Assembly (NCBI GenBank): GCA_016192705.1
Contig: JACPTQ010000077.1
Coordinates: 17,792-50,225 of the forward strand
From: Deltaproteobacteria bacterium
Lineage (GTDB): Bacteria; Myxococcota; JACPTQ01
Length of the DNA: 32,434 nucleotides
Reading direction: 5' to 3'
Shown here: positions 8,961 through 25,941 of the stretch, in pieces
How the letters are laid out: each line of letters opens with the position of its first letter
Position numbering within the stretch: the first letter of the stretch is position 1
Position numbers and translations under genes: made by a program
Notes under the pieces: model-generated
Told to the model about the DNA's origin: nothing
Seen by the model: only the letters and a program-made list of their open reading frames with translations
The model's database searches: none

Positions 8961-10724
8961 TCATGAACCGCGGCGAATCAGCTTGGAAAGTAGCGTCTCT
9001 GCTTCGTTTAGCTGCGCCTCGGCGCGCGCGGTGTCGCCGTGGCGTGCTGCGATTTCGGCGGCGGTGGTGGCGCGAACGATCTTGCCGATGTCGAGGTGGT
9101 TTAAGCGCGACGCGTTTGAAATGGGATGGATGAGCGGGGCGCGACCGGCGAGCGCGGCGGCGCGGCGTTCTTGGTCGGCGCGCCATTCTTCGCGGGGCGT
9201 CGGTTTCCGTTCGGGTAGCACTTCGTAAACAATTGCCGAGATGAAAAGGAGCATGACGCCCGCTGCGAAAATGACGGGTGCGTAAGGAACCATCGGATCG
9301 ACTTCGTTTGGGCGGAGCATACGGAACGAATCGGCGAGCCCAAAGACGATGAGCCCGAGCGCGACGAGCATCACGAGGAAGGCGATGCCGCGTCGTTTGA
9401 ACTCGCGCGACTTGCGCGCCTCGCCGTGCGGGTGCGGTGACGGCACGAGCGGAAAGAATCGGCCGAAAAGAAGCATCGCGAGAATGATGAGTCCGAAGAG
9501 TCCCGCGATGAGGCCGTATTCAACCCACGTCGGCTCGTAGGCGCGCGGGGGTTCGACCGGCATGAGCGCGCCGTGCGTTTGCGATGGGACGACGATGAGA
9601 AAGCGTTTTCCGACCGCGGCGACGTTTGCGAGAAGGCCCGCGATGCCGACCCAGCGTACCGAAGTTTTTCCGCGAACGTATTGGAGGAACGGGATCGCGA
9701 ATGTGAGGAAGAGGCAGCCGGCGACGGTCCAGAAGATGGGCGCGAAGGCGCCGCCGACGACTTCGTGGGCGAGGTGGCGATCGGCTTCGGGGCCGGCGTA
9801 TGAGGCGGTCAGCTCTTCGACGACCATGAAGTAAAGGTAGACGAGCGCGAGGATCCACATGAAGTTGCCGAGCCAGCGGATCGATTTGTCGGGGATTTTG
9901 TCGTGCAACGCGAAGAGGCGTCGAAAGCCGAGGACCATGAGTATGAGCATGCCGGTGCCCGAGACGCCGGCGAGCACAACGAACGCGGGCGCCTGGAGCG
10001 CGCTGTACCAACCGGGGCGGCCGCCTTGAATGCCGAAGATGAAGCCGAGCGTCGAGTGCGCGGTCACGAGGAGGGGGAGGATGGTGAGCGCGAGCCAGAA
10101 GCTGACGCGGTGGTGGCGTGCGCGCTGCGCGGGAAGATCGCGATAACCGGACGCCCAGATTCGATAGAAGAGGCGGCCGGGGGTTTTCGGGTCGGAGGCG
10201 AGCGCGGCGGCGTCGGCGCGGCCAGCGAGGAAGAAATAGACGAGGCTAGAAAACATGTAGCCGGCGACGACGAGGGTGAACGTGCCGTAGAAGGGGGACG
10301 ACGGGTTCGCGAAGCGCGGGAGTTTCAAGAGGCCGTGGTCGGGACGGCCGAGGTCGGCGATGACGACGCAGGCGCCGGCGATGAGCGCGGTGATCGTGAG
10401 GAGTTCGGCCATCCGCGTGATGGGGCGGAGCGCTTCAATGTCGAAGAGGCGACAGAGGGCGGCGACGGTGATGCCTGCGAACGAAACGCCGATGAAGAAG
10501 ACGTCGAATGCGATGTAAAGGCCCCAGGCGCCCGCGCCGTAACCGGGGTTGCGAAGGCCGGTTGCGATGAAGCCTTGGAGGGTTTGCTGTGTGAAACAGT
10601 AACCTCCGACTGCGAGCAGGCTGAGCGCGAGAACGACGAGCGTGAGCCAGGCCGTCGTCGTCTTCGGGAGCGGCGGCGGCCCGGCGTAGGGGACGCTTGG
10701 GACAATCCGGGTGTTAACTCGCAT
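8961..10724 (-). CDS. NrfD/PsrC-like membrane subunit, copy 1 of 3
   Basis: A 587-residue polytopic protein with about 12 hydrophobic helices between residues 24 and 490. The first ten fit the NrfD/PsrC/ActC fold; two extra helices follow a His/Arg-rich cytoplasmic-looking loop. NrfD-type subunits bind menaquinone in the inner membrane and, in some complexes, may move protons. Recognisable shared segments include RMAELLTI, ADLGRP, HSTLGFIFG and VVPSQTHGAL. A soluble, charged C-terminal tail of ~90 residues with helical heptad-like pattern follows, and copy 3 lacks it. The start ATG at 10724 has GGAGGC 7 nt upstream and overlaps the previous gene by 11 nt. It is the last gene of the operon. 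It is closest to copy 2, with long runs of identity, so it is probably a tandem duplicate. Confidence 0.9.
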   Translation of the reverse strand: MRVNTRIVPSVPYAGPPPLPKTTTAWLTLVVLALSLLAVGGYCFTQQTLQGFIATGLRNPGYGAGAWGLYIAFDVFFIGVSFAGITVAALCRLFDIEALRPITRMAELLTITALIAGACVVIADLGRPDHGLLKLPRFANPSSPFYGTFTLVVAGYMFSSLVYFFLAGRADAAALASDPKTPGRLFYRIWASGYRDLPAQRARHHRVSFWLALTILPLLVTAHSTLGFIFGIQGGRPGWYSALQAPAFVVLAGVSGTGMLILMVLGFRRLFALHDKIPDKSIRWLGNFMWILALVYLYFMVVEELTASYAGPEADRHLAHEVVGGAFAPIFWTVAGCLFLTFAIPFLQYVRGKTSVRWVGIAGLLANVAAVGKRFLIVVPSQTHGALMPVEPPRAYEPTWVEYGLIAGLFGLIILAMLLFGRFFPLVPSPHPHGEARKSREFKRRGIAFLVMLVALGLIVFGLADSFRMLRPNEVDPMVPYAPVIFAAGVMLLFISAIVYEVLPERKPTPREEWRADQERRAAALAGRAPLIHPISNASRLNHLDIGKIVRATTAAEIAARHGDTARAEAQLNEAETLLSKLIRRGS

Positions 10725-12543
10725 GTTTCGTCGCCTCCCTCAGAGCGGTCGTGGATTCGGTGCCGACGAGGCCGTCGACGATGGTTTTGATTTCGCGAAG
10801 ATGGGCATCGGCACCCGCGCGATCGCCGCGTCGAATCGCTTCGTTCACGAGGCCCGCGAGACGAAGCAGCTTAGCGGCGTGCGCGCGGTTTTCGGGGCGC
10901 GAGAGGTGAGATTCGCGAGTCGGGGCGCGGAAAAAGACGAGGCCGAGAGACTTGGCGCGGCGTCTTTGATCGGTGTTCCAAACTTCGCGCGCGGTCGGGT
11001 TTTTGTCTGGGAAGAGTTCGTAGATGACGGCTGACACGAAGAGGAGCATGACGCCGCTGGCGAAGATGACGGGAGCGAACGGGACGACGGGGTCGACTTC
11101 GTCGGGGCGCCAGAGGCGGAACGAGTCGGTGAGGCCGAAGACGACGAGGCCCAGGGCGATGAGCATTGTGGCGAAGGCGGCGAACCGGCGCTTGAATCCC
11201 GCGGTGGGTTTCACGGTGGCGTGCGGATGCGCGCTCGGAACAAACGGAAAGAAGCGGCCGAAAACGAGCATGATGAAGGCGACGAGGCCGAAGAGACCCG
11301 CGACGACGCCGAGCTCGCTCCACGACGGGAGATAGATGGTGGGTTCGTCGATCGGCATGAGGGCGCCGTGCGTTTGCGATGGGACGACGATGAGGAAGCG
11401 CTTGCAGATGGCGGCGACGTTGGCGAGAGCCGCGGCGACGCCGATCCACGCGACGGAGCCTCGCTTGCGGAGGAATAAGACGAACGGAAAGACGAAGGCG
11501 AGAAGGAGGCAGCCGATCGTCGTCCAGAACACCGGTGCGAAGCGGCCGCTCACGATTTCGTGGGCGATGTGGCGACCGGACTCGAGACCGGTGTAAGTCG
11601 TCGTGAGCTCTTCGACGATGACGAGGTAGAGGTAAACGAGCGAGAGGATCCAGAGGAAGTTGCCGAGCCAGCGGATGGCGGTGTCGGGGATTTGATCGCC
11701 GAGTCGGTAGAGCCTGCGGAAGCCGAGCGCGACAAGGATGAGCATGCCCGTGCCGGAGACGCCCGCGAGGACGACGAAGGATGGGGCTTGGAGTGCGCTG
11801 TACCAGCCGGGGCGGCCGCTTTGGATGCCGAAGATGAAGCCGAGCGTTGAGTGCGCGGTGACGAGGAGCGGGAGGATCGTGAGCGCGAGCCAGAAGCTGA
11901 TGCGGTGGTGGCGCGCGCGTTGGACGGGCGTGTCTTTGTAACCCGACGCCCAGAGGCGATAGAGGAAGCGCCCGGGGAGACTCGGTTTGGCGGCGAGCGC
12001 GGCCGCATCGGCGCGGCCGGCGAGGAAAAAATAGACGAGGCTCGAAAAGAGATAGCCCGACATGACGAGCGTGAACGTGCCGTAGAACGGCGACGTGGGG
12101 TTCGCGAGGCGCGGGAGTTTGAGAAGGCCGTGTTCGGGGCGGCCGAGGTCGGCGAGCACGCACGAGGCACCGGCGAGGAGGGACGCGATCGTGAGGAGCT
12201 CGGCCATTCGCGTGATGGGGCGAAGCGCGGCGACGTCGAAGAGGCGGCAGATGGCGGCGACCGTGATGCCAGCGAAGCTGACGCCGACGAAGAAAATGAC
12301 GAAGACGATGTAGAGGCCCCAGGAAGCGCCGCCGTGTCCGGGGTTGCGGAGGTTGGTCGCGATGGTTTCGTGGTGGAATTCTTGCGCGTAGGAGTAGATG
12401 CCGAAGAGAAACGCGAAGAGGGCAGCGGCGACGAGGAAGATCCACGCCATCGTGGTCGGCGGCAGGAGCGGCGCGGGCGCGGCCGCAGGTGTCGGCACAA
12501 CGCGCGTCTCGCTTCGCATTGGAATCTCCCTCGTCGTGTCCAT
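10714..12543 (-). CDS. NrfD/PsrC-like membrane subunit, copy 2 of 3
   Basis: A 609-residue protein, the longest of three paralogues: a Pro/Ala-rich N-terminal leader of ~28 residues, about 12 membrane helices, then a ~95-residue soluble tail rich in Arg, Ala and Leu. Residues 45-420 match copy 1 almost throughout (GLYIVFVIFFVGVSFAG, RMAELLTI, HSTLGFIFGIQ, GVSGTGMLIL). It would be a quinone-binding inner-membrane subunit. Its start at 12543 is plausible (GAGG upstream), but the internal ATG at 12519, with GGGAG 5 nt before it, is an alternative. It follows the SPFH gene by 15 nt and overlaps copy 1 by 11 nt. Copies 1 and 2 also share a 31-bp identical DNA run (11363-11393 and 9568-9598). Confidence 0.9.
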   Translation of the reverse strand: MDTTREIPMRSETRVVPTPAAAPAPLLPPTTMAWIFLVAAALFAFLFGIYSYAQEFHHETIATNLRNPGHGGASWGLYIVFVIFFVGVSFAGITVAAICRLFDVAALRPITRMAELLTIASLLAGASCVLADLGRPEHGLLKLPRLANPTSPFYGTFTLVMSGYLFSSLVYFFLAGRADAAALAAKPSLPGRFLYRLWASGYKDTPVQRARHHRISFWLALTILPLLVTAHSTLGFIFGIQSGRPGWYSALQAPSFVVLAGVSGTGMLILVALGFRRLYRLGDQIPDTAIRWLGNFLWILSLVYLYLVIVEELTTTYTGLESGRHIAHEIVSGRFAPVFWTTIGCLLLAFVFPFVLFLRKRGSVAWIGVAAALANVAAICKRFLIVVPSQTHGALMPIDEPTIYLPSWSELGVVAGLFGLVAFIMLVFGRFFPFVPSAHPHATVKPTAGFKRRFAAFATMLIALGLVVFGLTDSFRLWRPDEVDPVVPFAPVIFASGVMLLFVSAVIYELFPDKNPTAREVWNTDQRRRAKSLGLVFFRAPTRESHLSRPENRAHAAKLLRLAGLVNEAIRRGDRAGADAHLREIKTIVDGLVGTESTTALREATKHAS

Positions 12544-12558
12544 CGCCTCGCTATCCTC

Positions 12559-13401
12559 CTAGTGTCGCTCCGGCGCACCGGGTGCCGTCGGTGCCGGTGT
12601 CGGAGAACCGCCCGCGTCATTCATCGCAACCGCGATCGCCGCGGCCTTCTGGTGAACGTCGTCAAACGGCTTCGTAAGGTCAAAGATGACCTTGTTCGTT
12701 CCTTGCTGCGTCAGCGTTTGAAGCGCCTCGAAGCGTCGCAGCTCGATCGCGCCCGGCGACGAGATGAGCGTGCGGGCCGCTTCCGCGAAGTTGCGCGCGC
12801 TTTCGACGTCGGCCTTCGACTTGATGACAACGTACTCACGCTCGCGTTCGGCGATCGCCGCTTTTGCAAGCACCTCTTGCATTTGCCCAGGAAGCTGAAT
12901 GTCTTGGAACCCGAGGATCTCGACGTGCAAGCCCCACTGCGCGATGACGTGCTCGACGTGCTCGGCGACTTTCGCGGCGATCTGGTCTCGGTGCGCAAGG
13001 ACTTCGTTCAGCGACGTTTCGCCGACGAGGTCTCGAAGGACGACTTTGCAGCGGTCCTTGACGGCGCCATCGAAATCTTCGACCGCGAGAATCGCCTTTT
13101 CGGGATCGACGACGCGGTAGTAGACGACGGCGTCGATGTTGAGTGTGACGTTGTCCTTTGTGATGACCGCCTGTTGGAAGAGCTCGCGGCATCGCGTTCG
13201 CATATCGATCCGCATGATGCGTTGCACGATCGGCATGAAAAACCGAAGCCCCGGCTCGAGCTTTCGGCTGTAGCGCCCGAGCGTGAACTTGAGCGCAATT
13301 TCCCACTGCTTCACCTGTCGCAATCCCGCGATGAAATAAAGCAGCGGCGGAATGGCGAGTGCCGGAATGAGATACGGAGACTCCAGAAGTTGCTTCAACA
13401 T
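12559..13401 (-). CDS. SPFH/band-7 protein (slipin/stomatin-like)
   Basis: A 280-residue protein with one N-terminal hydrophobic segment (about residues 10-27), then a band-7 domain: LKFTLGRYSRKLEPGLRFF, IDMRTR, TKDNVTLNIDAVVYYRVVDPEKA, and a coiled AIAEREREYVVIKSKADVESA helix. That is the slipin/stomatin order. SPFH proteins form oligomeric membrane rings that organise or protect membrane complexes. The last ~25 residues are Pro/Ala-rich. The gene is inserted between NrfD copies 3 and 2 and overlaps copy 3 by 7 nt, so it is co-translated with the quinone module. This placement suggests a scaffold or assembly role for the NrfD subunits, which is an inference; I know of no standard Qrc or Alternative Complex III operon with a slipin. 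Confidence 0.9.
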   Translation of the reverse strand: MLKQLLESPYLIPALAIPPLLYFIAGLRQVKQWEIALKFTLGRYSRKLEPGLRFFMPIVQRIMRIDMRTRCRELFQQAVITKDNVTLNIDAVVYYRVVDPEKAILAVEDFDGAVKDRCKVVLRDLVGETSLNEVLAHRDQIAAKVAEHVEHVIAQWGLHVEILGFQDIQLPGQMQEVLAKAAIAEREREYVVIKSKADVESARNFAEAARTLISSPGAIELRRFEALQTLTQQGTNKVIFDLTKPFDDVHQKAAAIAVAMNDAGGSPTPAPTAPGAPERH

Positions 13402-14960
13402 GTTTCACCTCTCTTTGTTAATGGGTTGATCGAATCTGCGGAATCTGAAACCGGTGCGCCGCTTGACGCGAGCTTATCCGATCGCGGCGCGAGGAGTTCG
13501 TAAACGACCGCCGAGCCAAATAGGACCATCACGCCAACCGCGAAGATGATGGGGCTAAACGGAATGCGCGGGTCGACGGCGTCGCGATCGAACAGGCGAA
13601 GCGAGTCGGAAAGCCCGAGGACGACGAGGGCGAGGCCGATGGTGGCAACGAGGAAAACGATCGCGCGGTGGACGAGATTGGGTCGCTGCGGCGCGGCGGG
13701 GCGCACGTAAGGGCGTGGCGTCGGGATGAGCGGAAAAGTGCGGCCGAAGAGGAGAACGACGAGTGCGATGAGTCCAAAGAGTCCGGCGATGACGCCAACT
13801 TCGCTCCACGACGGAATATAGAAGTGGGGTTCGGTGATGGGCGTTAGGGCGCCGTGCGATTGCGAAGGGACGACGGTGAGGAAGCGCCGGAGGATGACGC
13901 CGATGTTGGCGAGAAATCCTGCGGCGACGAGCCAAGCGATCGACGTGCGGCGGCGCATGTACTGGATGAAGGGGAAAAGGAACGTGAGGCCGAAGGCGCT
14001 AACCATCGTCCAGAAGGGCGCGGCGAAGGGGCCTTGGACGACGGCGATGGCGAGGTCGCGGTCGGCGCGTGGGGCGGCGTAGGTTGCGGTTATTTCTTCG
14101 ACGACGATGAAGTAAAGGTTGATGAGGGTGAGGACCCAGAGGAAGTTGCCGAGCCAGCGGAAGAGCGTGTCGGGGAGATGGTCGTGGAGTTTGAAGAGGC
14201 GGCGGAGCGCGACGCCCGCGACGATGAGGAGGCCGGTTGCGGAGACGCCGTCGATGATGAGGAACGACGGGGCCATGAGCGCGCTGTACCAGCCGGGGCG
14301 GCCGCTTTGCGTGGCGACGACGAAGCCGAGCGTCGAGCGTGCGACGACGAGGAGAACGATAATGGCGAGGGCGAGGAAGAATGTCGCGCGGTGGTGGCGG
14401 CGGCGTTGTTCGGGGAGGTCGTGGTAGCCGGAGGCCCAGAGGCGATAGAGGAAGCGACCGCGCGTGGTTGGGGCGTCGGCCATCGACGCGGCGTCGGCGC
14501 GCCCGGCGAGGAAGAAATAAACGAGGTTCGCGAAAAAGTAGCTCGCCATGGCGACGGTGAAGGTGCCGAAGAACGGCGATGCGGCGTTGGCGTAGCGCGG
14601 GAGCTTCGTGAGGCCGTGGATGGGACGGCCGAGGTCGGCGAGGACGCACGTGGCGCCGCAAAGGAGCGCGATGATTGTGATGAGTTCGGCGATGCGGGCG
14701 ATCGGCTTGAGTGCGTCGACGCGGAGGAGGCGGCAGAAGGCGAGCGTTGTCGTCCCGGCGAAGCTGAGGCCCGTGAAGAAAATGACGAAGACGACGTAAA
14801 GCCCCCATGCGACGCCACCGTGGCCGGGCGTGCGGAGGTTTGTTGCGATCGTCGCGTGGTCGAACTCTTGCGCGTACGAGAAGATGCCGAACAAGAAGGC
14901 GGCGAGCGACGCCACGACGAGCGCGATCCAGAGCTTTGTCGTTCGTGGCAGCGTCAACAT
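13395..14960 (-). CDS. NrfD/PsrC-like membrane subunit, copy 3 of 3
   Basis: A 521-residue polytopic subunit with about 12 hydrophobic helices, directly after the ferredoxin-like gene (1 nt between stop and ATG 14960). That is the normal B-to-C order of Psr, Nrf and Qrc operons, so this is probably the partner of the Fe-S and MopB-like subunits. It shares with the other copies the segments GLYVVFVIFFTGLSFAG, AELITI, ADLGRP, VVPSQSHGAL and a C-terminal pair of extra helices, but it lacks their soluble tail and is more divergent. Expected role: menaquinol oxidation or menaquinone reduction in the inner membrane, passing electrons to the periplasmic Fe-S subunit. Its end overlaps the SPFH gene start. 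Confidence 0.92.
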   Translation of the reverse strand: MLTLPRTTKLWIALVVASLAAFLFGIFSYAQEFDHATIATNLRTPGHGGVAWGLYVVFVIFFTGLSFAGTTTLAFCRLLRVDALKPIARIAELITIIALLCGATCVLADLGRPIHGLTKLPRYANAASPFFGTFTVAMASYFFANLVYFFLAGRADAASMADAPTTRGRFLYRLWASGYHDLPEQRRRHHRATFFLALAIIVLLVVARSTLGFVVATQSGRPGWYSALMAPSFLIIDGVSATGLLIVAGVALRRLFKLHDHLPDTLFRWLGNFLWVLTLINLYFIVVEEITATYAAPRADRDLAIAVVQGPFAAPFWTMVSAFGLTFLFPFIQYMRRRTSIAWLVAAGFLANIGVILRRFLTVVPSQSHGALTPITEPHFYIPSWSEVGVIAGLFGLIALVVLLFGRTFPLIPTPRPYVRPAAPQRPNLVHRAIVFLVATIGLALVVLGLSDSLRLFDRDAVDPRIPFSPIIFAVGVMVLFGSAVVYELLAPRSDKLASSGAPVSDSADSINPLTKRGETC

Positions 14961-14961
14961 G

Positions 14962-15870
14962 TCAGCCTCGCCTGTCCTTCTTGAGGTAGAAGACGCGCGG
15001 GCGCGTGCCGAGATGCTCGAGGAGGCGGAACGCGCGCGGTTTTTTTGCGAGCGCCGAGACGAGGCTCGACGGATCGTTGGTGTCGCCGAAGACGATCGCC
15101 TTTGCGGGACAGGCCGACGCGCAGGCTGGCAAGTAGCGCAGCTCCGGGTCGCGGATGGCGCGGTGCTCGACGCGCGCGGTTTCTTTGACGTCTTGAATGC
15201 GGTGGTGGCAGAAGGTGCACTTTTCGACGACGCCGCGAGGGCGCGTTGCGACGTCTGGGTTTAGCATCTGCACCAAGTCGCCGTCCCACTCGGCCGGCTT
15301 CCAGTTGAAGCTGCGGCGCGAGTAAGGGCACGCGGCCATGCAGTAGCGGCAGCCGATGCAGCGCGACCAAATTTGCGCGGTGATGCCGTCGGCGTCGCGG
15401 TACGTTGCGCCGACCGGGCAAACTTGCGTGCAGGGTGCGCGTTCGCAGTGCTGGCATGGGAATGGGAGCGCTTCCGGCAGTGCGTCGTGGTCTTCGGAGT
15501 CGCGCCAAAGGAGGCTCATCCACTCGATGTGGGCGCCGCGATTCTCGTCGGCGGGGCCAAGCACCGGGACGTTGTTCTCTTGGCGACACGCGACGGTGCA
15601 GGCGCCGCAGCCCGAACAGCGATCGAGGTCGATCGCCATTCCCCATTGGTGCTTTCCTTTTCTGTTGTTGGTCGCTTTCGCGTGGTCGCCCGACGCGATG
15701 GCCGACGGGAGATTCGCGAAGAAGGCGCCGACACCGCCGAGTGCGAGGCCCATGCGCGCGAAGAAACCGCGGCGTGCGGGAGTTTCGGTCGCGTTGGTTG
15801 GAGCCGCGGATGCTGGCAGAGCCATGTCTGGCGCGGAATCGGCAGCGTCGTCTTTGGGGTTGGTCGACAT
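14962..15870 (-). CDS. Four-cluster [4Fe-4S] ferredoxin-like subunit (PsrB/NrfC/QrcC type)
   Basis: A 302-residue Fe-S protein. The ATG at 15870 has AAGGAGGG 7 nt upstream and begins one base after the MopB-like stop; a longer upstream frame is rejected. Arg33-Arg34 in RRGFFARMG with a following hydrophobic stretch looks like a Tat signal, so it should sit on the periplasmic side. Sixteen cysteines fit four [4Fe-4S] clusters: 85/88/91/95, 139/142/147/151, 171/174/177/181 and 218/221/250/254. This is the electron-transfer subunit between the membrane NrfD protein and the large subunit or cytochrome. The CTFCH at 218 belongs to the fourth cluster and is not a haem site. In Alternative Complex III this domain is fused to the MopB part; here it is separate, as in Qrc. 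Confidence 0.93.
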   Translation of the reverse strand: MSTNPKDDAADSAPDMALPASAAPTNATETPARRGFFARMGLALGGVGAFFANLPSAIASGDHAKATNNRKGKHQWGMAIDLDRCSGCGACTVACRQENNVPVLGPADENRGAHIEWMSLLWRDSEDHDALPEALPFPCQHCERAPCTQVCPVGATYRDADGITAQIWSRCIGCRYCMAACPYSRRSFNWKPAEWDGDLVQMLNPDVATRPRGVVEKCTFCHHRIQDVKETARVEHRAIRDPELRYLPACASACPAKAIVFGDTNDPSSLVSALAKKPRAFRLLEHLGTRPRVFYLKKDRRG

Positions 15871-15871
15871 C

Positions 15872-18352
15872 TCAGCCCTCCTTTCCTTTGCCCAGCTTGG
15901 GCGCGCGGGCGACTCGGACGCGCGTGCAGCTGTCGGCGTTGGCACCGGTTGCGCGTGCGGGACCGGGATTCAAGAGGTGTTGGACGTTCGCGCCAAACCC
16001 AGCCGCCCATCGGCCATACGCGGTGTGCCCTCCGCCAGCGGGGATCGCGACGACGCCCGGCTCAACGCGCGTGTCGAAGCGCGCGGGAAGCTTGATGGAT
16101 CCGAAGGGGCTCGTGACGACGACGAGATCGCCATCGCGAACGCCCGCAGGCGCTGAGCGCGGGTTTATCGTTGCGGCGACAACCCAGTAGCGCATGTGCG
16201 GGCGGCTCCGCAGAAATCGCAGCCACGGCTGGTTTGCGCCGCTCCCTTCGGCGTACCCGAGCGGGCGATACGCGACGAGCTTCATCGGGAAGTCGGTTTC
16301 GTTTCCCTGCCATTCGGGTGCGACGTACTCTGGCTTGAAAACGAACCTCACCGGACGCGCGGGCGGGTCTTCGGTTTCAGCCCAGAACCCTTCCTCGAAG
16401 AGGCGCTTGAGGAAGGCGCGTTCGGTGGTCGCGACGATCGTTCCGCGCTTTGCGTGATGGAGCCCGATGAGGCGTGCGCTCATCGCTTCGCGGAAGTTCG
16501 CCCACGGGAAGGCGCGCGAGACGCTGCCGCCGAGTGCGCGCGCGACGGTGATGAGGATGTCGCCGGTTTGTCGTGTGTCGTAGAGCGGTTCGATGACCGG
16601 GCTTCGAACTCCCGCGACAGCGCGAGCGATTCCGGGTGTTGCGCCGGCATCTTCCCAGCGTTCGAGAAACGAATGGTCGGGAAGCACGAGGTCGGCGAGC
16701 GCTTCGACGGTTTCGTCGCGGTACGGCGAGAACGAAACGATGAAGGGGATTTTGCGAAGGGCGGCTCTCCATCGTTCCGGCTGGTGACGGGCGAAACACG
16801 GGTTTGCGTGGAAGAGCAGCGCGACCTCGGGGCGATTGTCGGCGTCGGAATTGAGCCTTTCGGGAATCGTCTCGTGAACGGCGCGCGCGAGTGGGAACGC
16901 TTCGCTTCCAGCACCGTCGAGGCGCAGCCGCGTGAGCCCGGTCCGGGCGATGTCGTCCGCTTCGACGGCCGGCCAGTCGGCGTACGGGGGCGCTGAGGCG
17001 ATGCGCACACCGCCGAGCGGCCGCTCGATGGCACCAACGAGCGCGTTCAGCGCGAGAACGGCGAGGGCGGTTTCCCACGAACTCGAAAACGAAAGGCTCC
17101 GCTCATCGACAAACGCGAATGGCTGTTCGTCGGTCGCGAATTCGCGTGCGACGCGGACGATGGTAGCGGCCGGGACGCCGGTGATTTGAGAAACTCTCTC
17201 GGGTGTGAACGTCTCAAGGAACTGCTTGTAGCTCGGGCCGCTCGTGCCGGGCACGGGAGTTTCGAAACCCACGGTCGATTTCGCGATGAAGTCGTGATTG
17301 TAGAGTTTGTCGCGGACGATGACATGGCTGATGCCGAGGGCGAGCGTGCCGTTTGTGGCGGGGACGATCGGCAGCCACTCGTCGGCGTTGTGCGCGGATA
17401 AGTCCGGTCCCGCGTGGACCAGTTTGACGCGGTGGCCGGTTTTGCCGCCGCGGCGCAATTCCGCGGCCGCGCGCGCGAAGAAGACCGACTGGCACGACTC
17501 CTCCAGAAGCCCGGCGCCAAAGCTGATGACGTAGTCGGCGCCCGTCCAGTCGAACGCCGGAATCTCAAAGGTCCCAAGCGTCGACTGCATCGCTTGCGCA
17601 AGCACCGAGCTGCGCATCGGGCGCCCGTCGACGAAGTTGGGCGAACCGAACGCCTGACAAAAGCGTTCGAATAGGTCGTGCATGAACCCGCGTTCGCGGC
17701 CGCACATGACGAGAAGCTTGTGTGCGCCGTTTTTCGTTCGGAGGTCGCCAAGCTTTGCAGCGAGGCGTTTTTGGGCGGCGTCCCACGAGATGGGAACGAG
17801 CTTGCCGCCTTCACGTGCGAGGGGTCCCTTCAAGCGGTCAGCGTCATAGACAGCCTGAAGCGCCGACAATCCGCGCGGGCCTATTCCCCCCTCATTCAGC
17901 GGATTCTTGGGGTTCCCCTCGATGCGCACCGCGCGCCCCTCGACGACGCGAACACGAATCCCACAGCCCGCTTGGCATTGCGCGCACGACGTGTTGACCC
18001 AACGCTCCTCGTGCGAACCGTAGTTCTCGGCGCCGGGCACCGGCGGCTTCTTGAGCGCGAGTCCGGTTGGGTCTGGCTGAAAACGTTCCCACGGCGGCTG
18101 CCGACAGCCCGCCGCAAGCACCGGCAACGTCGCCGCGCCCGTTCCCACAAGCCCGATGCGCCCGAGCGCCGCCCGCCGCGAAACAATCGCGTCCCATCCG
18201 TGCCCGCGTTTTGAGACCCGCTCCGCTGCCGCTCCCGCAACCGCCTCCGCGCCCGCTTTCGTAAACGTACTCGTGCTCGTACTCGTCGTCGTGCCCGTGC
18301 TCGTCGTCGTGCTCGCGGTTGCATTCCTCATTTCTTCTCTTCTCTTTTTCAT
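15872..18352 (-). CDS. Molybdopterin-oxidoreductase-like large subunit (Qrc/ACIII type), Tat lipoprotein-like
   Basis: An 826-residue MopB-superfamily protein. The ATG at 18352 is chosen because GAGGGAGGG lies 6 nt before it. Residues 12-31 are nearly all Thr/Ser. A Tat motif (Arg59-Arg60) and a lipobox-like LAAGC (Cys83) follow. The N-terminal Fe-S motif is incomplete: Cys123, Cys126 and Cys130 are present, but the fourth Cys, expected in the next glycine-rich GxxCxxG-type turn, is replaced (GGIGPRG, about residue 158). The usual molybdenum-ligand Cys is also absent (DGRPMRSS). QrcB and ActB are family members that do not use a molybdenum centre, and this protein looks the same. Expected role: structural or electron-relay subunit of a quinone oxidoreductase on the periplasmic face. 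The C-terminal domain (from ~700) has the molybdopterin dinucleotide-binding fold pattern (VRDGDLVVVTSPFGSIKLPA). Confidence 0.85.
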   Translation of the reverse strand: MKKRREEMRNATASTTTSTGTTTSTSTSTFTKAGAEAVAGAAAERVSKRGHGWDAIVSRRAALGRIGLVGTGAATLPVLAAGCRQPPWERFQPDPTGLALKKPPVPGAENYGSHEERWVNTSCAQCQAGCGIRVRVVEGRAVRIEGNPKNPLNEGGIGPRGLSALQAVYDADRLKGPLAREGGKLVPISWDAAQKRLAAKLGDLRTKNGAHKLLVMCGRERGFMHDLFERFCQAFGSPNFVDGRPMRSSVLAQAMQSTLGTFEIPAFDWTGADYVISFGAGLLEESCQSVFFARAAAELRRGGKTGHRVKLVHAGPDLSAHNADEWLPIVPATNGTLALGISHVIVRDKLYNHDFIAKSTVGFETPVPGTSGPSYKQFLETFTPERVSQITGVPAATIVRVAREFATDEQPFAFVDERSLSFSSSWETALAVLALNALVGAIERPLGGVRIASAPPYADWPAVEADDIARTGLTRLRLDGAGSEAFPLARAVHETIPERLNSDADNRPEVALLFHANPCFARHQPERWRAALRKIPFIVSFSPYRDETVEALADLVLPDHSFLERWEDAGATPGIARAVAGVRSPVIEPLYDTRQTGDILITVARALGGSVSRAFPWANFREAMSARLIGLHHAKRGTIVATTERAFLKRLFEEGFWAETEDPPARPVRFVFKPEYVAPEWQGNETDFPMKLVAYRPLGYAEGSGANQPWLRFLRSRPHMRYWVVAATINPRSAPAGVRDGDLVVVTSPFGSIKLPARFDTRVEPGVVAIPAGGGHTAYGRWAAGFGANVQHLLNPGPARATGANADSCTRVRVARAPKLGKGKEG
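18260..18319 (-). repeat. Thr/Ser-coding low-complexity repeat
   Basis: A run of short triplet-based repeats (ACG, AGC, AGT and ACT codon mix with repeating GAGCACGA and GACGACGAG units on the minus strand) encodes residues 12-31 of the MopB-like protein, almost only Thr and Ser, just before the Tat signal. Such runs are prone to slippage. It lies in frame and keeps the gene open. Confidence 0.7.
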
Positions 18353-18365
18353 CCCCATCCCTCCC

Positions 18366-19127
18366 TCACTTGTGGCACACACGGCACTGGTTCGATGCGC
18401 CCGTCTTCCGATGGCAATCCATGCACGTATCCATGTCGTTCAGCTTCGGGTTCATCCGCTCGGGCGGCGCGGTCCACTCTTTGACGCCCGGGTGGCACTG
18501 TTCACACCGCATTTTCGCGACCGTTACGTGCATCCGATGCGAAAAGTAGACGTGGCCCGGATTCTGATTCACTTGGATCCACTTGAGCTTCACGCCGTCC
18601 GCCGCCATTTTTCGAACCTGCTGTTCCCGTTCGCTTGGCGGGTCTTGCTGCGGCCTCATGTGGCAAAGCAGGCATTGCGAGAGCGACGGGAGCCCTGCGT
18701 GCGGCTTTGTCTCGGCGCCCGAATGGCAATCGGTGCATGGAATCTCTTTCTTCAGGTGAATGGCGTGATTGAACGCGAACGGCTGCGTGACCGGCGCCTT
18801 CTCGGGAATGCACGCCACCACGAGGAACGCCAGGAGAACGGGCGTCCAATTGGCGATGAACTTCGATTTGCCCTCAAGTCCTTCGGCGAAGGTTCCGGTC
18901 AAAATAGCGCGTGTCGTTGGGGCGGGCGGGACCTTGGCGAGCAAAGGCTCGCATCCGCAGGGTCTGAGGTGTCGATCCATCAGATAATACGACCGACGAG
19001 CGTGCGTCTGGTTTCTGCTTCGGCCAATCGAGGAGGGGCAGACCCGAGGACTTCTGCGAGCCGGAGCGAGTCCAAGTCTCGCGCGCAGACTGGCGAGGTA
19101 CCTTTCCCGGTAATCCGAGAGCTTCAT
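18366..19127 (-). CDS. Membrane-anchored pentahaem cytochrome c (ActA/QrcA-like)
   Basis: A 253-residue protein with five CXXCH sites at residues 131, 152, 208, 235 and 248, after a single hydrophobic helix at about 91-106. The haem domain (FAFNHAIHLKK, CTDCH, CLLCH, FSHRMH, CEQCH) has the haem-plus-distal-His spacing of cytochrome c7/c3-like domains, and pentahaem ActA and hexahaem QrcA fill this position in their operons. The ATG at 19127 overlaps the previous stop as ATGA. That leaves an unusual ~90-residue basic N terminus before the helix, so a later start (for example Met50) is possible. It is probably periplasmic, anchored in the inner membrane, passing electrons between the MopB/Fe-S module and the large multihaem protein upstream. 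The next gene starts 13 nt downstream. Confidence 0.87.
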   Translation of the reverse strand: MKLSDYRERYLASLRARLGLAPARRSPRVCPSSIGRSRNQTHARRSYYLMDRHLRPCGCEPLLAKVPPAPTTRAILTGTFAEGLEGKSKFIANWTPVLLAFLVVACIPEKAPVTQPFAFNHAIHLKKEIPCTDCHSGAETKPHAGLPSLSQCLLCHMRPQQDPPSEREQQVRKMAADGVKLKWIQVNQNPGHVYFSHRMHVTVAKMRCEQCHPGVKEWTAPPERMNPKLNDMDTCMDCHRKTGASNQCRVCHK

Positions 19128-21220
19128 CGTGGACCTCCGAATAGGTGGCAGTCCGAACACTTCGTGGCATTCGGCATATGCGTTTTTTTGTCGGTGTGGC
19201 ACTTGGCGGTGCACGTCTCGCGCGCCGCTGGTGAACCGCCGTGGCTGCGGTGGCACGTCGCGCAGTTCGCGTGCGGCGCCATTTGGTGCAGGCCAACTTG
19301 CTTCGACTTATCGTGACACGAGTAGCACGCGGGAATTTTTTCGCGACCGCCTGGTCCATGCGGGCGATGGCAGCTTAGGCATCCGCCCTTCACCTTCGAT
19401 CCGTGCGTACTCTTTGCTTGCGGCGTGTGGCACGATCCGCATGCGACCTTCGGTGTGCTTCCTGCGACGTGAGGGTCGTGGCATTTCGCGCAGTTCGCGT
19501 GGCCGTCCGGCGCCGACGACACCTGATCGGCGTGGCATGTCCGGCACTGCTGTTTTGCGCTCGCCTTACCCTCATGCGGGTTGTGGCACTGCGTACACTT
19601 CGCGTGGCCCTTTGAAATCGGTTCCTTTTTCGCGGTGTGGCATGTTGCGCACGCGGCGGGATGTTTCGACGGGTCGTGCGTCGTGTGGCACTTCGTGCAG
19701 GTGCGGTGGCCCGGGTTCGACGCGACGCGCTTCACGGTTGAGGCGTGGCAGTTGCGACAAACGGCGGCGCCGTCGAGCTTGAATCGATGCGGTGTGTGGC
19801 ACTTCGTGCACGTTGTGTTCCCTTTGTGAAACGCAGTTTCCGACGACGCTTTGGTGTGGCAGTTCACGCACGACGTCGCGACGCCCTGCGTGCGCCTCGC
19901 TGAGGTCGACGTGACGGTTGGCAGGTCCTTGCGGTGTGGCGGATGGCAGCCGGTGCACGCGCCTTTGTGCGCATCGGGTGGGTGTTGCGGCCGTAGCTTC
20001 GCGTGGCACGTCGCGCAGCTCTTCCGCGCGCTCGGGAGCGGGTCGTGCGGTTTGTGGCAGCTCGCGCATCTCCCGTGCGCTGGAACGCGCGCTTCGCCGA
20101 GCGTCTCCTTTCCTTTGTGGCAGTTGAGGCAGACCGTCGCAACGCGAACGGGCGCTCGGTCCTTCGGGTGCGGGGCGTGGCAGCCGACACAGGTTCCGCG
20201 CGTCGCATCTCGCGGATGCGTGACGTTGGCCCGCGTGTGGCACGTTGCACACTTCTCACGGGCGCTCGCGCGGACGTTGTGCGGGGCGTGGCAGCTCTTG
20301 CAATCGCGATGCGCGGTCGATTTGTTTTCGCCGAGTGTGTGGCGATCGACGTGGCAGCTCTTGCAGTCGCGCACCGTCGCCTTCGAAAACTCATGCGGCA
20401 GGTGGCACGACACGCACTTCTCATGCCCGCCGGAGAACGTCGCGGTTGCAGGAACGACCGGCTCGTTGGCGCGGTGGCAATCGGCGCAGCGGTCTTGCGC
20501 CGTTTTCCCCTTCTCGTGCGGGTTGTGGCAGTCGATGCAAACCTTCGCGGTGTTCGTCGTCGAGGACGACGCCATCTTTCCGTGCCGCGCGCTCGTCTTG
20601 GTGTGACACGAGACGCAATTCTTCGGCGCGACTCCAGGCTTCGTGTGCGGGAGGTGGCAGCTCGAGCACTCCTCGTTTGCGTGGACGGTCACCGCGACGC
20701 GCACACCGACGGCCTTGTCGTGGCAGCGCATGCACGCCCATGGCTTCTGTGCTTTGTCCTTCTTGACGAGGAAGCCGTGACACGACAGACATGCGCCCTC
20801 TTTGCGCGACAAATCGGAGAGGTGGATCGTTGACTCGTTTGCGATGTGGCACTTGAGGCAGCGCTGATTGTCGGGGCGATCAAACACGTTTTCTTTGATG
20901 ACGTGGCATTCGGCGCACTGAACTGTTTTGGGGCCCGTGAGGTGTTGTCGGTGGCCCGGGCTTTCAAGTACGGCCTGCTGCGGGCGTTTCACTTTTGACT
21001 TCACGGGCGCGGGCGGCGGCGGTGGCGGCGGCCGATCGAAGACACCCGAAAAGTAGAGAACGACCGCGGACGTTCCCGCGACGATGAGAAGAATCGCGGG
21101 CCACTGCCATATCGGCGCTCGACTTTTTTTGAACTCGCCGCTGAAGAGCTTTGGAACGCCCGGTGGCGGCGGAATGTTCGGCTTCGGGGGAGGCGCACCG
21201 TCTTTGGGATCGCGCGTCAT
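19124..21220 (-). CDS. Giant membrane-tethered multihaem cytochrome c, 31 haem sites
   Basis: A 698-residue protein. The ATG at 21220 gives the ATGA overlap seen at the other cytochrome junctions; a GTG nine bases earlier is possible. Residues 1-35 are Pro-rich and cytoplasmic-looking, residues 39-60 form one membrane helix, and a seven-proline run (64-70) follows. I count 30 CXXCH motifs plus one CX3CH (CTAKCH at residue 670), one haem site per ~20 residues over the rest of the protein. Many are the doubled type CxxCHxPH, the second His being a likely axial ligand (Pfam doubled-CXXCH pattern). No catalytic domain is visible, so it is probably an electron wire projecting from the inner membrane into the periplasm. 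It lies between the 13-haem and pentahaem genes, bridging the outer-membrane and quinone modules. Confidence 0.93.
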   Translation of the reverse strand: MTRDPKDGAPPPKPNIPPPPGVPKLFSGEFKKSRAPIWQWPAILLIVAGTSAVVLYFSGVFDRPPPPPPPAPVKSKVKRPQQAVLESPGHRQHLTGPKTVQCAECHVIKENVFDRPDNQRCLKCHIANESTIHLSDLSRKEGACLSCHGFLVKKDKAQKPWACMRCHDKAVGVRVAVTVHANEECSSCHLPHTKPGVAPKNCVSCHTKTSARHGKMASSSTTNTAKVCIDCHNPHEKGKTAQDRCADCHRANEPVVPATATFSGGHEKCVSCHLPHEFSKATVRDCKSCHVDRHTLGENKSTAHRDCKSCHAPHNVRASAREKCATCHTRANVTHPRDATRGTCVGCHAPHPKDRAPVRVATVCLNCHKGKETLGEARVPAHGRCASCHKPHDPLPSARKSCATCHAKLRPQHPPDAHKGACTGCHPPHRKDLPTVTSTSARRTQGVATSCVNCHTKASSETAFHKGNTTCTKCHTPHRFKLDGAAVCRNCHASTVKRVASNPGHRTCTKCHTTHDPSKHPAACATCHTAKKEPISKGHAKCTQCHNPHEGKASAKQQCRTCHADQVSSAPDGHANCAKCHDPHVAGSTPKVACGSCHTPQAKSTHGSKVKGGCLSCHRPHGPGGREKIPACYSCHDKSKQVGLHQMAPHANCATCHRSHGGSPAARETCTAKCHTDKKTHMPNATKCSDCHLFGGPR

Positions 21221-22269
21221 CCGTGACACACCTTGCAGACGCGGTCGCTCTGCTTCTGGCGAGTTTTCCAGCCGGGCGGGTGCGGATTTCCGCCAGGGCC
21301 GCCGGGCTTATGGCACGTAACGCAGTTCGACGCCGCGCCTTTGTCGTGGCACCCGGCGCACGTGACGATCTCGCGCCGCGCCGCACGCCCGTGCTGATTT
21401 CCGCCGCCCGAAATCGAAACCCACCCGGGCGCGTGTGGGCTCCGCTTCGAGCCTGCGGCGACGCCGTTTTTCTCGTGGCAGCTCGAGCACTCGTTTTGCG
21501 CGTGGCAGCGAAGGCACGTGTCGCCACTTCCGCGCGCGTCCAGGCTGTGTCGCGTGAGGAAATCGCCGCGGTGAATGAACCCCTTTTCAATGGCTTGCGG
21601 GAAGCGCGTGCTCGGCCTAACGACCGCCTGGCTCGGGATGTGGCAGTTCGCGCAGTACGATTCGGTGTGGCACTGCTGGCAAAGGTCGGTGCGGTTCGCT
21701 GCGACCTTCCCGTGCTGGCGCCCGAAGTCGCCTTCGTGTGCGAACTGGCTCACCGGCTGCAGTGGGTATTGCCGAAGGTTCGAGTGACACGCGCCGCATT
21801 CGAGGTTGTCCCACTGCTTCTTATGGTTGTGGCACGTGAAGCAGCTCGACATCGTTGGGCGGACGCGCTCGACGTGGTTCGCGCGCGTGACGAGTTCCTT
21901 GTGGCACGGGAAGCACTGCCCGCGATTTTTTTTCAGGTGGGTCGGGTGGTTGAAGGTGAGGGGCGCCGAGCGTTCGAGCCCGACCTTCGCCTCGCGCACG
22001 ATGACGCTGTGGCAGTCGTCGCACGAACCTTTGTAGTCCTTCTTTGGGTGCGGCAGAGCGTGGCAGTTCGCGCATTTTTCGGGCGTGGGGAGCGATTGGT
22101 GCGCCGTCTTTTGGTCGAAGACGCCGGCGTGGCAATTCGTGCAACCGACGCCGCGTCCAACGTGCGCCGCATGCTGAAACCGCATGAAGGGCTTTTGCGA
22201 GCAGGTGACCGTCGCGAGGCCCGCCGCAAGCGCGACGACGAGGATGATGGCGTGCCCGAGCCGCATCAT
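21217..22269 (-). CDS. Periplasmic 13-haem cytochrome c
   Basis: A 350-residue protein with an N-terminal signal (hydrophobic residues 5-22, then TCSQK; a weak lipoprotein signal is possible) and 13 CXXCH sites spread evenly to the last residues (CKVCHG). Several are paired with upstream FxHxxH ligands (FQHAAHVG, FNHPTHLKK). It has no catalytic fold I can recognise. Position directly after the beta-barrel gene, with ATGA overlaps on both sides, matches the periplasmic or barrel-lining cytochrome of porin-cytochrome conduits (MtrA in Shewanella, OmaB in Geobacter), though those have 10 and 8 haems and homology is not claimed. It would take electrons from the large tethered cytochrome to the outer-membrane barrel. 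Confidence 0.88.
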   Translation of the reverse strand: MMRLGHAIILVVALAAGLATVTCSQKPFMRFQHAAHVGRGVGCTNCHAGVFDQKTAHQSLPTPEKCANCHALPHPKKDYKGSCDDCHSVIVREAKVGLERSAPLTFNHPTHLKKNRGQCFPCHKELVTRANHVERVRPTMSSCFTCHNHKKQWDNLECGACHSNLRQYPLQPVSQFAHEGDFGRQHGKVAANRTDLCQQCHTESYCANCHIPSQAVVRPSTRFPQAIEKGFIHRGDFLTRHSLDARGSGDTCLRCHAQNECSSCHEKNGVAAGSKRSPHAPGWVSISGGGNQHGRAARREIVTCAGCHDKGAASNCVTCHKPGGPGGNPHPPGWKTRQKQSDRVCKVCHG

Positions 22270-23525
22270 TTGTAGAACCTCATGAACTCGTATTCGAGCT
22301 TCGCCATGATTTGCCCGCGCTTCTCAAAGAGAGGCGTGATGCCGCCCTCCGCCGAAAGGAGGACGCGGAGGCGCCGCGCCAATTCGTAGCCGACGGTTGC
22401 GGTTGCGCCGAATGAAACGGTGCTGCCGTTTACCGCGTTGTCGTAGACGTAGGTCTGGACGTCGCCGGCCGCGAAGAAAGCCGGTGTGAAGCGGTGTCGA
22501 GCGGCCGCACGCCCCTCGAAGTAGCCGCCCGCCGAGTCGCGCCAGCGCCCGATGCGTGCCGTCGCGGTCGTTTGATTCCAGCTCCCGAGTCGAAGCGTCG
22601 CACCAAGGCTCAACCGGTAACCGGTGTCGTTGCCGTCGAACGCGAGCAGGTGCGCATCGGCCGTGAGCGTCACGCGCCCATGCACGCGCCACGAAGCATC
22701 CGCGCCGAGTTCGTCGCGGACCGCGTCCGAAAAGACGGAGAAGATGCTCGTCTTGTCGAGAAGCGCGACCGGCACGACGCGTCGCCAGTCGGCGGCGATG
22801 CGAAGCCCGGCCTTTGGGTAGAACGTCGTGAAGAGGTCGAGTTGCGCGAGCGTTGTTCCGACGGTGTCGTAGAGCGCCCCTGCGCCGAATTCGAGCCACG
22901 CCTTGGGGTTGACGACGACGTCGGCGCCGAGAAGCTCGCGTGAAATCTCGAGGTCTTTGCGCGCTTGGAGGAACGACACGCCGCTCGTGACGAGGTCGCG
23001 CAAGCGATACGAGAGCCGCGCGCCCCAGAGGAAATCGCCGCTGTCATATGTGATGCGTGGGCCCGGTGCGCCGCCGACAAACGTTTCGAGTCGAAGCCCG
23101 ACGGGGAGGGCCTGGGACATGTGAAGTCCGTCGAGGCGCTCAGCGCGCGCGAGACCGAGCAGCAAGAATTGGCGCCCGACCGTCGCTTCGAATCCGAGGC
23201 GCGGCGCGCGAATTCGCGCAAACCCAACGGCGACTTCGCCCGCGCGACGATCGTCGAGCCACGTTTCGCCGAGGTCGACGCCGGCCCAACCCGTGAATCG
23301 GATCGTGATGTCCCGGTTTGCGTCGCCAATTTTCTCGGCGTCGAGGTTCAACCACGAGATGACCGGTGCCACAAAGCGGAGCTCTCGCTGCATCGGGTCG
23401 GGGAAAATGTTGAGCATCGTCTCGATCGACCCGGCGAGCGAGGGCCTTTCGCTTGGCTTGATGTCCGCGGCCGCGGGCGCTGTCACGAGGAACACGGTCG
23501 CGAAGAGGGCGGCGCGCTTTCTCAT
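22266..23525 (-). CDS. Outer-membrane beta-barrel, candidate cytochrome-conduit porin
   Basis: A 419-residue protein starting at ATG 23525, where an ATGA overlap and a clean signal peptide (residues 1-20, ending APAAA) decide against the longer upstream frame. The mature part is a run of alternating hydrophobic and polar strands with Gly/Tyr/Arg/Asp turns (GFEATVGRQFLLLGL, LSYRLRDL, TVSFGATATVGYELARRLRVLL), typical of a 14-18 strand barrel. It ends MRFYK rather than the usual terminal aromatic. No family is recognised. Lying between a haem lipoprotein and a 13-haem periplasmic cytochrome, it fits the MtrB/OmbB position, an outer-membrane sleeve through which cytochromes pass electrons. That is inferred from gene order; sequence homology to those barrels is not evident. 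Confidence 0.78.
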   Translation of the reverse strand: MRKRAALFATVFLVTAPAAADIKPSERPSLAGSIETMLNIFPDPMQRELRFVAPVISWLNLDAEKIGDANRDITIRFTGWAGVDLGETWLDDRRAGEVAVGFARIRAPRLGFEATVGRQFLLLGLARAERLDGLHMSQALPVGLRLETFVGGAPGPRITYDSGDFLWGARLSYRLRDLVTSGVSFLQARKDLEISRELLGADVVVNPKAWLEFGAGALYDTVGTTLAQLDLFTTFYPKAGLRIAADWRRVVPVALLDKTSIFSVFSDAVRDELGADASWRVHGRVTLTADAHLLAFDGNDTGYRLSLGATLRLGSWNQTTATARIGRWRDSAGGYFEGRAAARHRFTPAFFAAGDVQTYVYDNAVNGSTVSFGATATVGYELARRLRVLLSAEGGITPLFEKRGQIMAKLEYEFMRFYK

Positions 23526-24238
23526 GGCCCGTACCTCACGTCGGCGACGCCGTTGATGTGGAGCGTGGGGTTGATGATGTTTCGGTTCGAATCGACGACG
23601 TCGCCATGGCACGCGCTGCACGGATCGGTGAAGTGTCCCGAGAGTGGAACGCTGTGGCACGTGCCGCACGCAACTTCGGCCGAGCCGCCGGTCCACGTGG
23701 GCGTTGTGTTGCCCCCATCCGCGAGCGTCGCGCCGTGGCAGTAAGCGTTCGAACATTTTCCGGCGTCGTACCGCGGCACGGCGCCTTTGGTGTAAGCGAT
23801 TCCGCCGTCAGCGAACGGGACTTCCGCGCCGGGCGTCGTGTCGAGGTGCCCCACCGAAAAAAGTCCCGACGTCGGCACCGTATGGCATGTTTCGCATGTC
23901 ACGGCACGCCCCAGCGCGCCGCCATCGAGGTGCTTCAAGTGCGCGCCAGTTGCGGGGGGCTGCGCGTGACAAAGGGTGCAACCCGCCGCGCCCTCGGTGT
24001 GACACGAGGCGCACGCGACGCCCGCGATTCCACCGTCGAGGTCGGCGCCGTGACACGTTCGGCACTGCGAGTAGTCGTATCCGCCGTCGCGAAGCACCTT
24101 GCCGTGAAACTCGGCGCTCCCGGCGTCTAGCCACAGCTCGCCGTGCCACTTCTCGTTTGTCGTCGGTTCCTTATCGCGTAAACGTCCGCACCCCGCCGTA
24201 ACGACGGTCACTGCGGCAATTGTGACGAGCCACCTCAA
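23522..24238 (-). CDS. Multihaem cytochrome lipoprotein with CX4CH motif, 7 haem sites
   Basis: A 238-residue lipoprotein: signal sequence with lipobox-like TAGC (Cys17), Asp/Gly-rich body, six CXXCH sites (residues 59, 76, 87, 115, 191, 207) and one CX4CH (CSNAYCH at 162-168). The alternation of CX4CH and CX2CH matches the Geobacter-type GSu_C4xC__C2xCH domain (TIGR01904). Such proteins are exported, often to the outer face of the outer membrane. It would be the terminal, surface-side cytochrome of the conduit. The start is TTG at 24238 with GAGGT 7 nt upstream; no better ATG exists before the signal peptide. It is the first gene of the operon, with the barrel gene overlapping its stop. Confidence 0.85.
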   Translation of the reverse strand: MRWLVTIAAVTVVTAGCGRLRDKEPTTNEKWHGELWLDAGSAEFHGKVLRDGGYDYSQCRTCHGADLDGGIAGVACASCHTEGAAGCTLCHAQPPATGAHLKHLDGGALGRAVTCETCHTVPTSGLFSVGHLDTTPGAEVPFADGGIAYTKGAVPRYDAGKCSNAYCHGATLADGGNTTPTWTGGSAEVACGTCHSVPLSGHFTDPCSACHGDVVDSNRNIINPTLHINGVADVRYGP

Positions 24239-25835: not shown

Positions 25836-25866
25836 GCCAGCTGGCAATGGCGCGCATAATATGCGC
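25836..25866. repeat. Two short inverted repeats before the histidine kinase
   Basis: GCCAGCTGGC (25836-25845) is a perfect palindrome, and GCGCAT-AAT-ATGCGC (25852-25866) a 6-bp dyad. They lie 75-105 nt before the kinase start and could be operators for autoregulation or a weak terminator after the porin; no U-run follows. Confidence 0.35.
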
Positions 25867-25941
25867 AGGTCGCTACGGCAATCGCGAGGTGTGACGCGTA
25901 AAAGGCGTGGCCTGGGGATTGCGGAGAGTGAGGATAGGCTG

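Follow-up and report, generated by a model that had tools for sequence, protein, structure and literature searches.

The window analysed here, a 32,434-nucleotide stretch of DNA from a deltaproteobacterium of the phylum Myxococcota, comprises bases 17792-50225 of contig 23 (JACPTQ010000077.1) in a genome of 5.2 Mb that is assembled in 88 contigs and is 97% complete. It carries an operon of eleven genes in which an outer-membrane electron conduit and a quinone-linked module occur together, and which probably encodes a complete route by which electrons pass from the quinone pool to the cell surface or back. All eleven genes lie on the minus strand, from 24238 to 8961, in the following order:

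23522..24238, minus strand, haem lipoprotein, 238 residues, TTG start, lipobox VTAGC; six CX2CH motifs and one CX4CH motif (seven sites)
22266..23525, minus strand, predicted outer-membrane beta-barrel, 419 residues; signal peptide, no Cys, amphipathicity
21217..22269, minus strand, 13-haem lipoprotein cytochrome; 13 CX2CH motifs
19124..21229, minus strand, 31-haem cytochrome, 701 residues, with an N-terminal transmembrane (TM) anchor (residues 40-58); 30 CX2CH motifs and one CX3CH motif
18366..18920, minus strand, pentahaem lipoprotein, QrcA/ActA-like; five haem sites, 5′ end uncertain (frame open to an ATG at 19127)
15872..18382, minus strand, MopB-like subunit, QrcB-like, with a twin-arginine translocation (Tat) signal and a lipobox; NF041783 (QrcB), 288 bits versus a cut-off of 440
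14962..15870, minus strand, four-cluster Fe-S subunit, QrcC-like, with its own Tat signal (RRGFF) and 16 Cys; NF041782 (QrcC), 275 bits versus a cut-off of 400
13395..14960, minus strand, NrfD-like quinone/proton subunit 1 (NrfD1), 521 residues, about 12 predicted TM helices; PF03916
12559..13401, minus strand, SPFH/band-7 protein, HflK-like, membrane-anchored; PF01145, E = 4e-34
10714..12543, minus strand, NrfD-like subunit 2 (NrfD2), 609 residues; 60% identity to NrfD1 and 64% to NrfD3, key residues kept
8961..10724, minus strand, NrfD-like subunit 3 (NrfD3), 587 residues; 56-64% identity to the other NrfDs, key residues kept

An eleven-gene operon with 56 haem sites

The genes overlap or nearly touch, with successive distances of -4, -4, -13, (-4), -17, +1, +1, -7, +15, and -11 nt, save for one probable gap of 0.2 kb; the bracketed value, between the 31-haem and pentahaem genes, is uncertain. 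The junction between the conduit and quinone modules falls mid-operon, amid tight gene overlaps. A scan of the operon junctions detected no sigma-70-like promoter there, and a search for internal terminators and promoters of the operon found no convincing site, with terminator-like sites on both strands mildly above the number in shuffled sequence (27 versus 19.6 +/- 5.1). Motif counting gave 7 + 13 + 31 + 5 = 56 haem sites, comprising 54 CX2CH motifs, one CX3CH motif, and one CX4CH motif. An earlier note, made from the sequence alone, had described these genes, and the open reading frame calls recovered all eleven in the order and on the strand it gave. Its total of 56 haem sites is right, with two of the 56 motifs being atypical; its reading of the genes as one coupled operon agrees with the scans for terminators and promoters, and its claim that both modules share one operon with an inner-membrane-anchored 31-haem cytochrome is supported.

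A predicted porin-cytochrome conduit

The identity of the barrel is argued from its signal peptide, its lack of Cys, its beta-strand amphipathicity (z of 4.8 versus shuffles, compared with -1.5 to 0.8 for window proteins that are not expected to be barrels), and its near-constant adjacency to a 12/13-haem cytochrome in relatives. These relatives come from a comparison set of 195 genomes, all of the same phylum and none of the same family or genus as the window genome, in which G-numbers designate genomes and L-numbers loci. A barrel protein search found relatives in 57 of the 195 genomes, and an alignment of 26 family members contains 14 invariant columns. Profile searches of the barrel family against Pfam and the PDB returned no match. 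The 12/13-haem homologue (32-42% identity) adjoins the barrel at nearly all of the 40 loci read; across 25 aligned sequences the haem motifs of the 13-haem cytochrome are largely invariant, and in 22 of these 25 a Cys, usually part of a lipobox, precedes the haem motifs. We infer that the 13-haem cytochrome is the trans-outer-membrane wire partner of the predicted barrel. The first gene product contains a TIGR01904 GSu_C4xC domain (E = 2e-12), with Geobacter-type CxxxxCH/CxxCH motifs, and is probably the outer-membrane or surface cytochrome of the conduit. Its homologues, with 4-12 haems, adjoin the barrel at most relatives' loci having enough sequence.

Family searches identified C7 and GSu_C4xC cytochrome families among the operon's cytochromes; the 13-haem profile best matched c7-type cytochromes and matched MtrA (6r2q) weakly (E = 5e-5). 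A two-gene form of the conduit with a 12-haem cytochrome of ~345 residues, such as that at L096, fits the described Anaeromyxobacter porin-cytochrome conduit (Pcc) clusters (PMC4245776). Thus, judged by its sequences, the conduit would work like a porin-cytochrome conduit with the Pcc gene arrangement and lies outside the MtrB/PioB family, which was sought among the 26 barrel members and detected in none. Of the earlier designation of the conduit as Pcc/Mtr-like, the Pcc type is supported. In the conduit tree, the window lineage is deep and isolated.

MtrC/OmcA-type decahaem cytochrome homologues lie near 16 of the barrel loci. The window genome encodes its own MtrC-type decahaem cytochrome (PF22113, E = 6e-44) on contig 27 and not in the operon, and this protein matches that of L079 at 35% over 1237 aligned positions. 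It is found (L136:5125-8181, about 117.1-120.2 kb of contig 27) at the same locus as the genome's second Qrc-like module, together with genes for a Porin_O_P protein and for a protein containing several cytochrome c domains of the mono-haem type, which makes this locus a candidate for a second quinone-to-surface set. A small one-haem protein (110-114 residues) is encoded beside the barrel in several relatives (L079:9293-9637, L129:1946-2290, and L085:8141-8473) and is absent from the window operon.

A Qrc-like quinone module

Qrc families score best for all three of the QrcA/B/C-like subunits, each of which misses its NCBIfam equivalog cut-off, the pentahaem protein matching NF041781 (QrcA) with E = 3e-27 and 95 bits versus a cut-off of 180. 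Genes for ActD, ActE, and ActF were sought between 8961 and 24238 and none was found, the extra NrfD proteins being paralogues of NrfD1; the module therefore appears to be Qrc-like rather than an Alternative Complex III (ACIII). What had been called a Qrc/ACIII quinone oxidoreductase is thus narrowed to the former, short of the equivalog cut-offs.

Alignments of the MopB-like subunit show that the fourth Cys of the FS0 site is replaced by Ile167 and the Mo ligand by Arg257, so that the subunit is probably cofactor-free. Both ligands are also lost in the sister MopB of G162, while the relative in G013 retains both. The G013 protein (L036:5703-8135), with its full FS0 motif and Cys Mo ligand, is encoded inside the same pentahaem-MopB-FeS-NrfD-SPFH cluster type, and, judging by these residues, it may still work as a molybdoenzyme and represent an intermediate towards the cofactor-free form.

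The Fe-S subunit retains the quinone-site Tyr (Y176) in the motif CIGCRYC. Its proximal cluster site has four Cys, as compared with Ser/Thr at the ACIII loci read, including that on the genome's own contig 10. At this last locus (L038), nitrate-reductase-like genes are followed by an ACIII-like pentahaem-MopB-FeS-NrfD set, an arrangement resembling the Nar+NrfD clusters of PMC10732223. In NrfD1, Ser128, Asp109, and Arg359 match functional positions of QrcD/ActC, and all three NrfDs keep the Ser of SPF, the Asp of DLGRP, and the Arg, the QrcD positions having been matched by motif. The levels of identity indicate that NrfD2 and NrfD3 are tandem copies, paralogous to NrfD1. Because the SPFH gene follows the first NrfD gene both here and in G013 (L036, 30% identity), the NrfD-SPFH pair is probably the older arrangement, with NrfD2 and NrfD3 as later copies. 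The SPFH protein itself is probably an assembly, scaffold, or membrane-domain factor.

The 31-haem cytochrome and the start of the pentahaem gene

The 31-haem cytochrome, which we propose to be a periplasmic wire, has one predicted membrane helix, a short Pro-rich tail, and haem sites spaced 16-29 residues (about 20) apart. Relatives with 23-25 haems (29-35% identity) are encoded near eight barrel loci. In G162 and G161 the pentahaem gene directly follows the 13-haem gene with no wire gene between them, and for this reason the wire looks inserted into the window operon.

The frame of the pentahaem gene is open to an ATG at 19127, preceded by GGAGG, that overlaps the end of the 31-haem gene. 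However, the first ~78 codons (~230 nt) of this frame look non-coding, with GC contents at the three codon positions of.59/.62/.64 versus.59/.43/.77 for the rest, and the lipoprotein signal starts only ~95 residues in. It is therefore likely that a gap of ~0.2 kb precedes the pentahaem gene and that the gene has a non-ATG start. The gap after the wire gene may be a scar of the insertion.

Recurrence of the pairing in relatives

In G162, a 5.8-kb contig carries the end of the barrel gene and the genes for the 13-haem cytochrome, pentahaem cytochrome, MopB, Fe-S, and NrfD proteins, arranged as in the window. G161 contains a fused operon with the barrel and the same five further genes, together with an 11-haem lipoprotein, while in G125 the two modules lie side by side and are divergent. 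At three more loci (L079, L081, and L108), the conduit is paired with Fe-S/NrfD modules that lack MopB. None of the other loci read from the 195 genomes has the exact eleven-gene order; the conserved core is barrel-13-haem-pentahaem-MopB-FeS-NrfD, and the wire, the SPFH protein, and the tripled NrfD occur together only in the window operon. The earlier note knew of no described system that fuses both modules with a 31-site wire. The fusion as such is not unique, since it recurs in G162, G161, and (divergently) G125, and an Act-like cluster next to a Pcc has been noted before in a metagenome-assembled genome (MAG; PMC10732223).

In a tree of the four Qrc genes, the window and G162 are sisters (100/100) beside G013, and G161 and G125 form the other clade; a grouping of the window with G161 is rejected both in this tree (p = 0.002) and in the conduit trees (p = 0.0015). 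The 13-haem cytochrome tree, in turn, rejects a grouping of the window with G162 (p = 0.0004). Since the window and G162 group together by their Qrc parts but not by their 13-haem cytochromes, and since a window-G161 grouping is rejected for both modules, the trees indicate at least two independent events in which different conduits became joined to Qrc-like modules. A tree of MopB alone placed G161 beside the window (86/96, not firm); this placement was dropped because it is contradicted by the four-gene tree. Lastly, of 56 genomes with the barrel, 6 have an NrfD gene no more than 10 kb away from it, compared with about 1.0 predicted from the number of NrfD genes and the genome size (p = 0.0004); the p value ignores kinship, and the six genomes span four families.

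Flanking genes and a possible promoter

One candidate regulatory site lies ahead of the operon:

24298..24313, minus strand, weak candidate for a sigma-54 promoter, TGGCACGGTACATGTA, lying 60-75 nt ahead of the first gene

The site TGGCACGGTACATGTA has two mismatches to the -24/-12 consensus, and such sites are no more numerous across the window than expected by chance. A histidine kinase and a sigma-54 response regulator adjoin the operon on the plus strand (25861-28565), the sigma-54 activator gene itself occupying 27081-28565. A regulator 58% identical to it is encoded next to the G125 conduit (L085), and in G013 the Qrc-SPFH cluster has a kinase-regulator pair ahead of it. The divergent neighbour of the operon (24555-25751, plus strand) encodes a protein of ~400 residues with a signal peptide and a beta amphipathicity z of 4.1, probably another outer-membrane barrel, which is distantly related (23%) to the Porin_O_P protein on contig 27. 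A complete NrfH-NrfA pair (4- and 5-haem nitrite reductase; 3665-5668, plus strand) lies 3 kb past the operon end and is followed by genes for a universal stress protein, a radical SAM/SPASM protein, and a hemerythrin. An RHS/YD-repeat-like open frame (2-2152, plus strand) extends beyond the left edge of the window.

Discussion

The present study suggests, with a probability of roughly 75%, that the operon encodes a complete electron route linking the quinone pool with the cell surface. This reading is built on what the sequences contain, namely the gene content, the motifs, the membrane anchors, the residue losses, and the recurrent pairing of the two modules, and it is from the independent pairings in relatives that we argue that the modules work together. 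Specifically, a Qrc-like, periplasm-facing complex of NrfD, Fe-S, MopB, and pentahaem subunits would exchange electrons with menaquinone, with MopB, its cofactors lost, acting as a scaffold and the Fe-S clusters passing electrons to the pentahaem protein. The membrane-anchored 31-haem cytochrome would carry electrons over the periplasm to the 13-haem cytochrome, which, threaded in the beta-barrel, would take them across the outer membrane to the surface haem lipoprotein and, from there, probably to the MtrC-type decahaem protein whose gene lies on contig 27.

Several points weigh against this reading. The barrel fold and every subunit contact, like the spanning of the periplasm and the function itself, are predictions; the barrel has no family match, and an AlphaFold model of it from the single sequence, with no alignment, reached a predicted local distance difference test (pLDDT) score of only 31. 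The 31-haem wire and the SPFH protein are absent from the other fused operons read, and the G162 contig stops within NrfD. In addition, the 23-25-haem relatives of the wire are, where the start is clear, mostly lipoproteins and not membrane-anchored, the ~0.2-kb gap ahead of the pentahaem gene interrupts the tight packing, and the host is, as far as known, uncultured.

The earlier note held that the direction of flow cannot be told, and this is upheld, outward flow from menaquinol to an extracellular acceptor such as Fe(III), Mn(IV), or humics being somewhat likelier than inward or reversible flow. The genome encodes nitrate and nitrite reductases and a haem-copper oxidase, and a search for the RuBisCO large chain in the genome did not find one, which argues against Calvin-cycle autotrophy; together these features mildly favour outward flow, the RuBisCO and oxidase results bearing on direction weakly. 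The same route run in reverse, in which a cathode, a partner cell, or Fe(II) would supply the electrons and menaquinone would be reduced by the Qrc-like complex, with energy conserved as in QrcABCD, is a less probable alternative, to which we would give perhaps one chance in four. Characterised QrcABCD does run inward, opposite to the flow favoured here, reducing menaquinone with an H+/e- of 1 (PMC13059093), and in syntrophic sulphate reducers Oet conduits, encoded at separate loci, are placed upstream of Qrc (PMC10553843); moreover, the haem-copper oxidase could serve as a sink. However, the nitrate and nitrite reductases point to acceptor-using respiration, Anaeromyxobacter Pcc has been linked to the reduction of metals (PMC4245776), and the lack of the RuBisCO large chain speaks against autotrophic uptake, although heterotrophic uptake would still be compatible with all of this.

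It is a speculative extension of the proposed route, and a doubtful one, that all eleven proteins form one trans-envelope supercomplex, in which the 31-haem wire would dock on both the quinone enzyme and the barrel-embedded 13-haem cytochrome, bypassing soluble carriers, and three NrfDs per Fe-S subunit would add charge translocation. Improbable in our view is that the modules are neighbours with separate jobs, merely co-transcribed, with the Pcc conduit using soluble periplasmic cytochromes and the Qrc-like complex serving another periplasmic partner such as NrfHA (3665-5668) or a hydrogenase. A Qrc-like module does occur without a conduit in G013 and in a Lake Kivu genome, the latter having one of the module's nearest relatives, most conduits occur without a Qrc-like module, and NrfHA lies only 3 kb past the operon end, but the repeated independent pairing of the modules, the enrichment of NrfD genes near barrels, and a module junction placed mid-operon amid tight overlaps all argue against it. 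Finally, that MopB works as a molybdoenzyme and that the operon serves respiration of a soluble oxyanion (arsenate, selenate, or polysulphide) and not of a surface acceptor, as might be suggested by its closest solved-structure relative by sequence, the arsenate reductase ArrA, and by the ligands retained in G013, is rejected as very improbable on the loss of both ligands in the window and its G162 sister.

The proposed route from quinone pool to surface combines elements of several known systems. With QrcABCD of Desulfobacterota it shares a multihaem cytochrome c, a MopB that here is probably cofactor-free, a four-cluster Fe-S protein, and NrfD in the same order, as well as the quinone-site Tyr, essential in QrcC, and the NrfD-type Ser/Asp/Arg positions that have been tested or discussed there (PMC13059093). 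It differs in scoring below the NCBIfam cut-offs, in having three NrfDs with extra C-terminal helices and an SPFH protein, and in carrying conduit genes within the operon. The ACIII (ActABCDEF) has the same pentahaem, MopB-like, Fe-S, and NrfD architecture, and ActC is the closest solved NrfD; however, the window lacks ActD/E/F, its proximal cluster has four Cys, and the genome has a separate ACIII-like locus on contig 10. The Pcc clusters of Anaeromyxobacter and Geobacter have the same arrangement of a porin-like protein of ~400 residues beside a 12-14-haem periplasmic cytochrome of ~340 residues, with or without an outer-membrane cytochrome (PMC4245776). In contrast, the window conduit is linked to a quinone complex and belongs to a deep, isolated lineage, its likeness to Geobacter OmbB/OmaB being one of gene arrangement.

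Whole-envelope routes within one cluster are also encoded by PCC3/PCC4 and by mtrABC with cymA/mtrH (PMC5566968; PMC6295460), and PCC3 includes very long periplasmic multihaem wires (PMC5566968), but the quinone module in these systems is b-type or NapC-type and not MopB/FeS/NrfD. One Act-like cluster beside a PCC is mentioned in passing for MAG OFTM248; it is a single instance given without analysis, and the accessible part of that source mentions no 31-haem wire, SPFH protein, or NrfD triplication (PMC10732223). A literature search, outside which most subscription papers fell, returned no description of a fused Pcc-Qrc operon, of its recurrence, or of the form with the 31-haem cytochrome, SPFH, and three NrfDs.

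In extracellular electron transfer, it has yet to be settled how electrons get over the periplasm from quinone enzymes to outer-membrane conduits or back, and the genes for the two end enzymes often lie at separate places. The window operon, which brings together both ends and a candidate wire, provides a defined gene set for testing direct coupling. Furthermore, the same pairing of modules has arisen repeatedly within the phylum, which suggests a role for Qrc-like complexes outside the sulphate reducers and makes lineages outside Anaeromyxobacter candidates for extracellular electron transfer.

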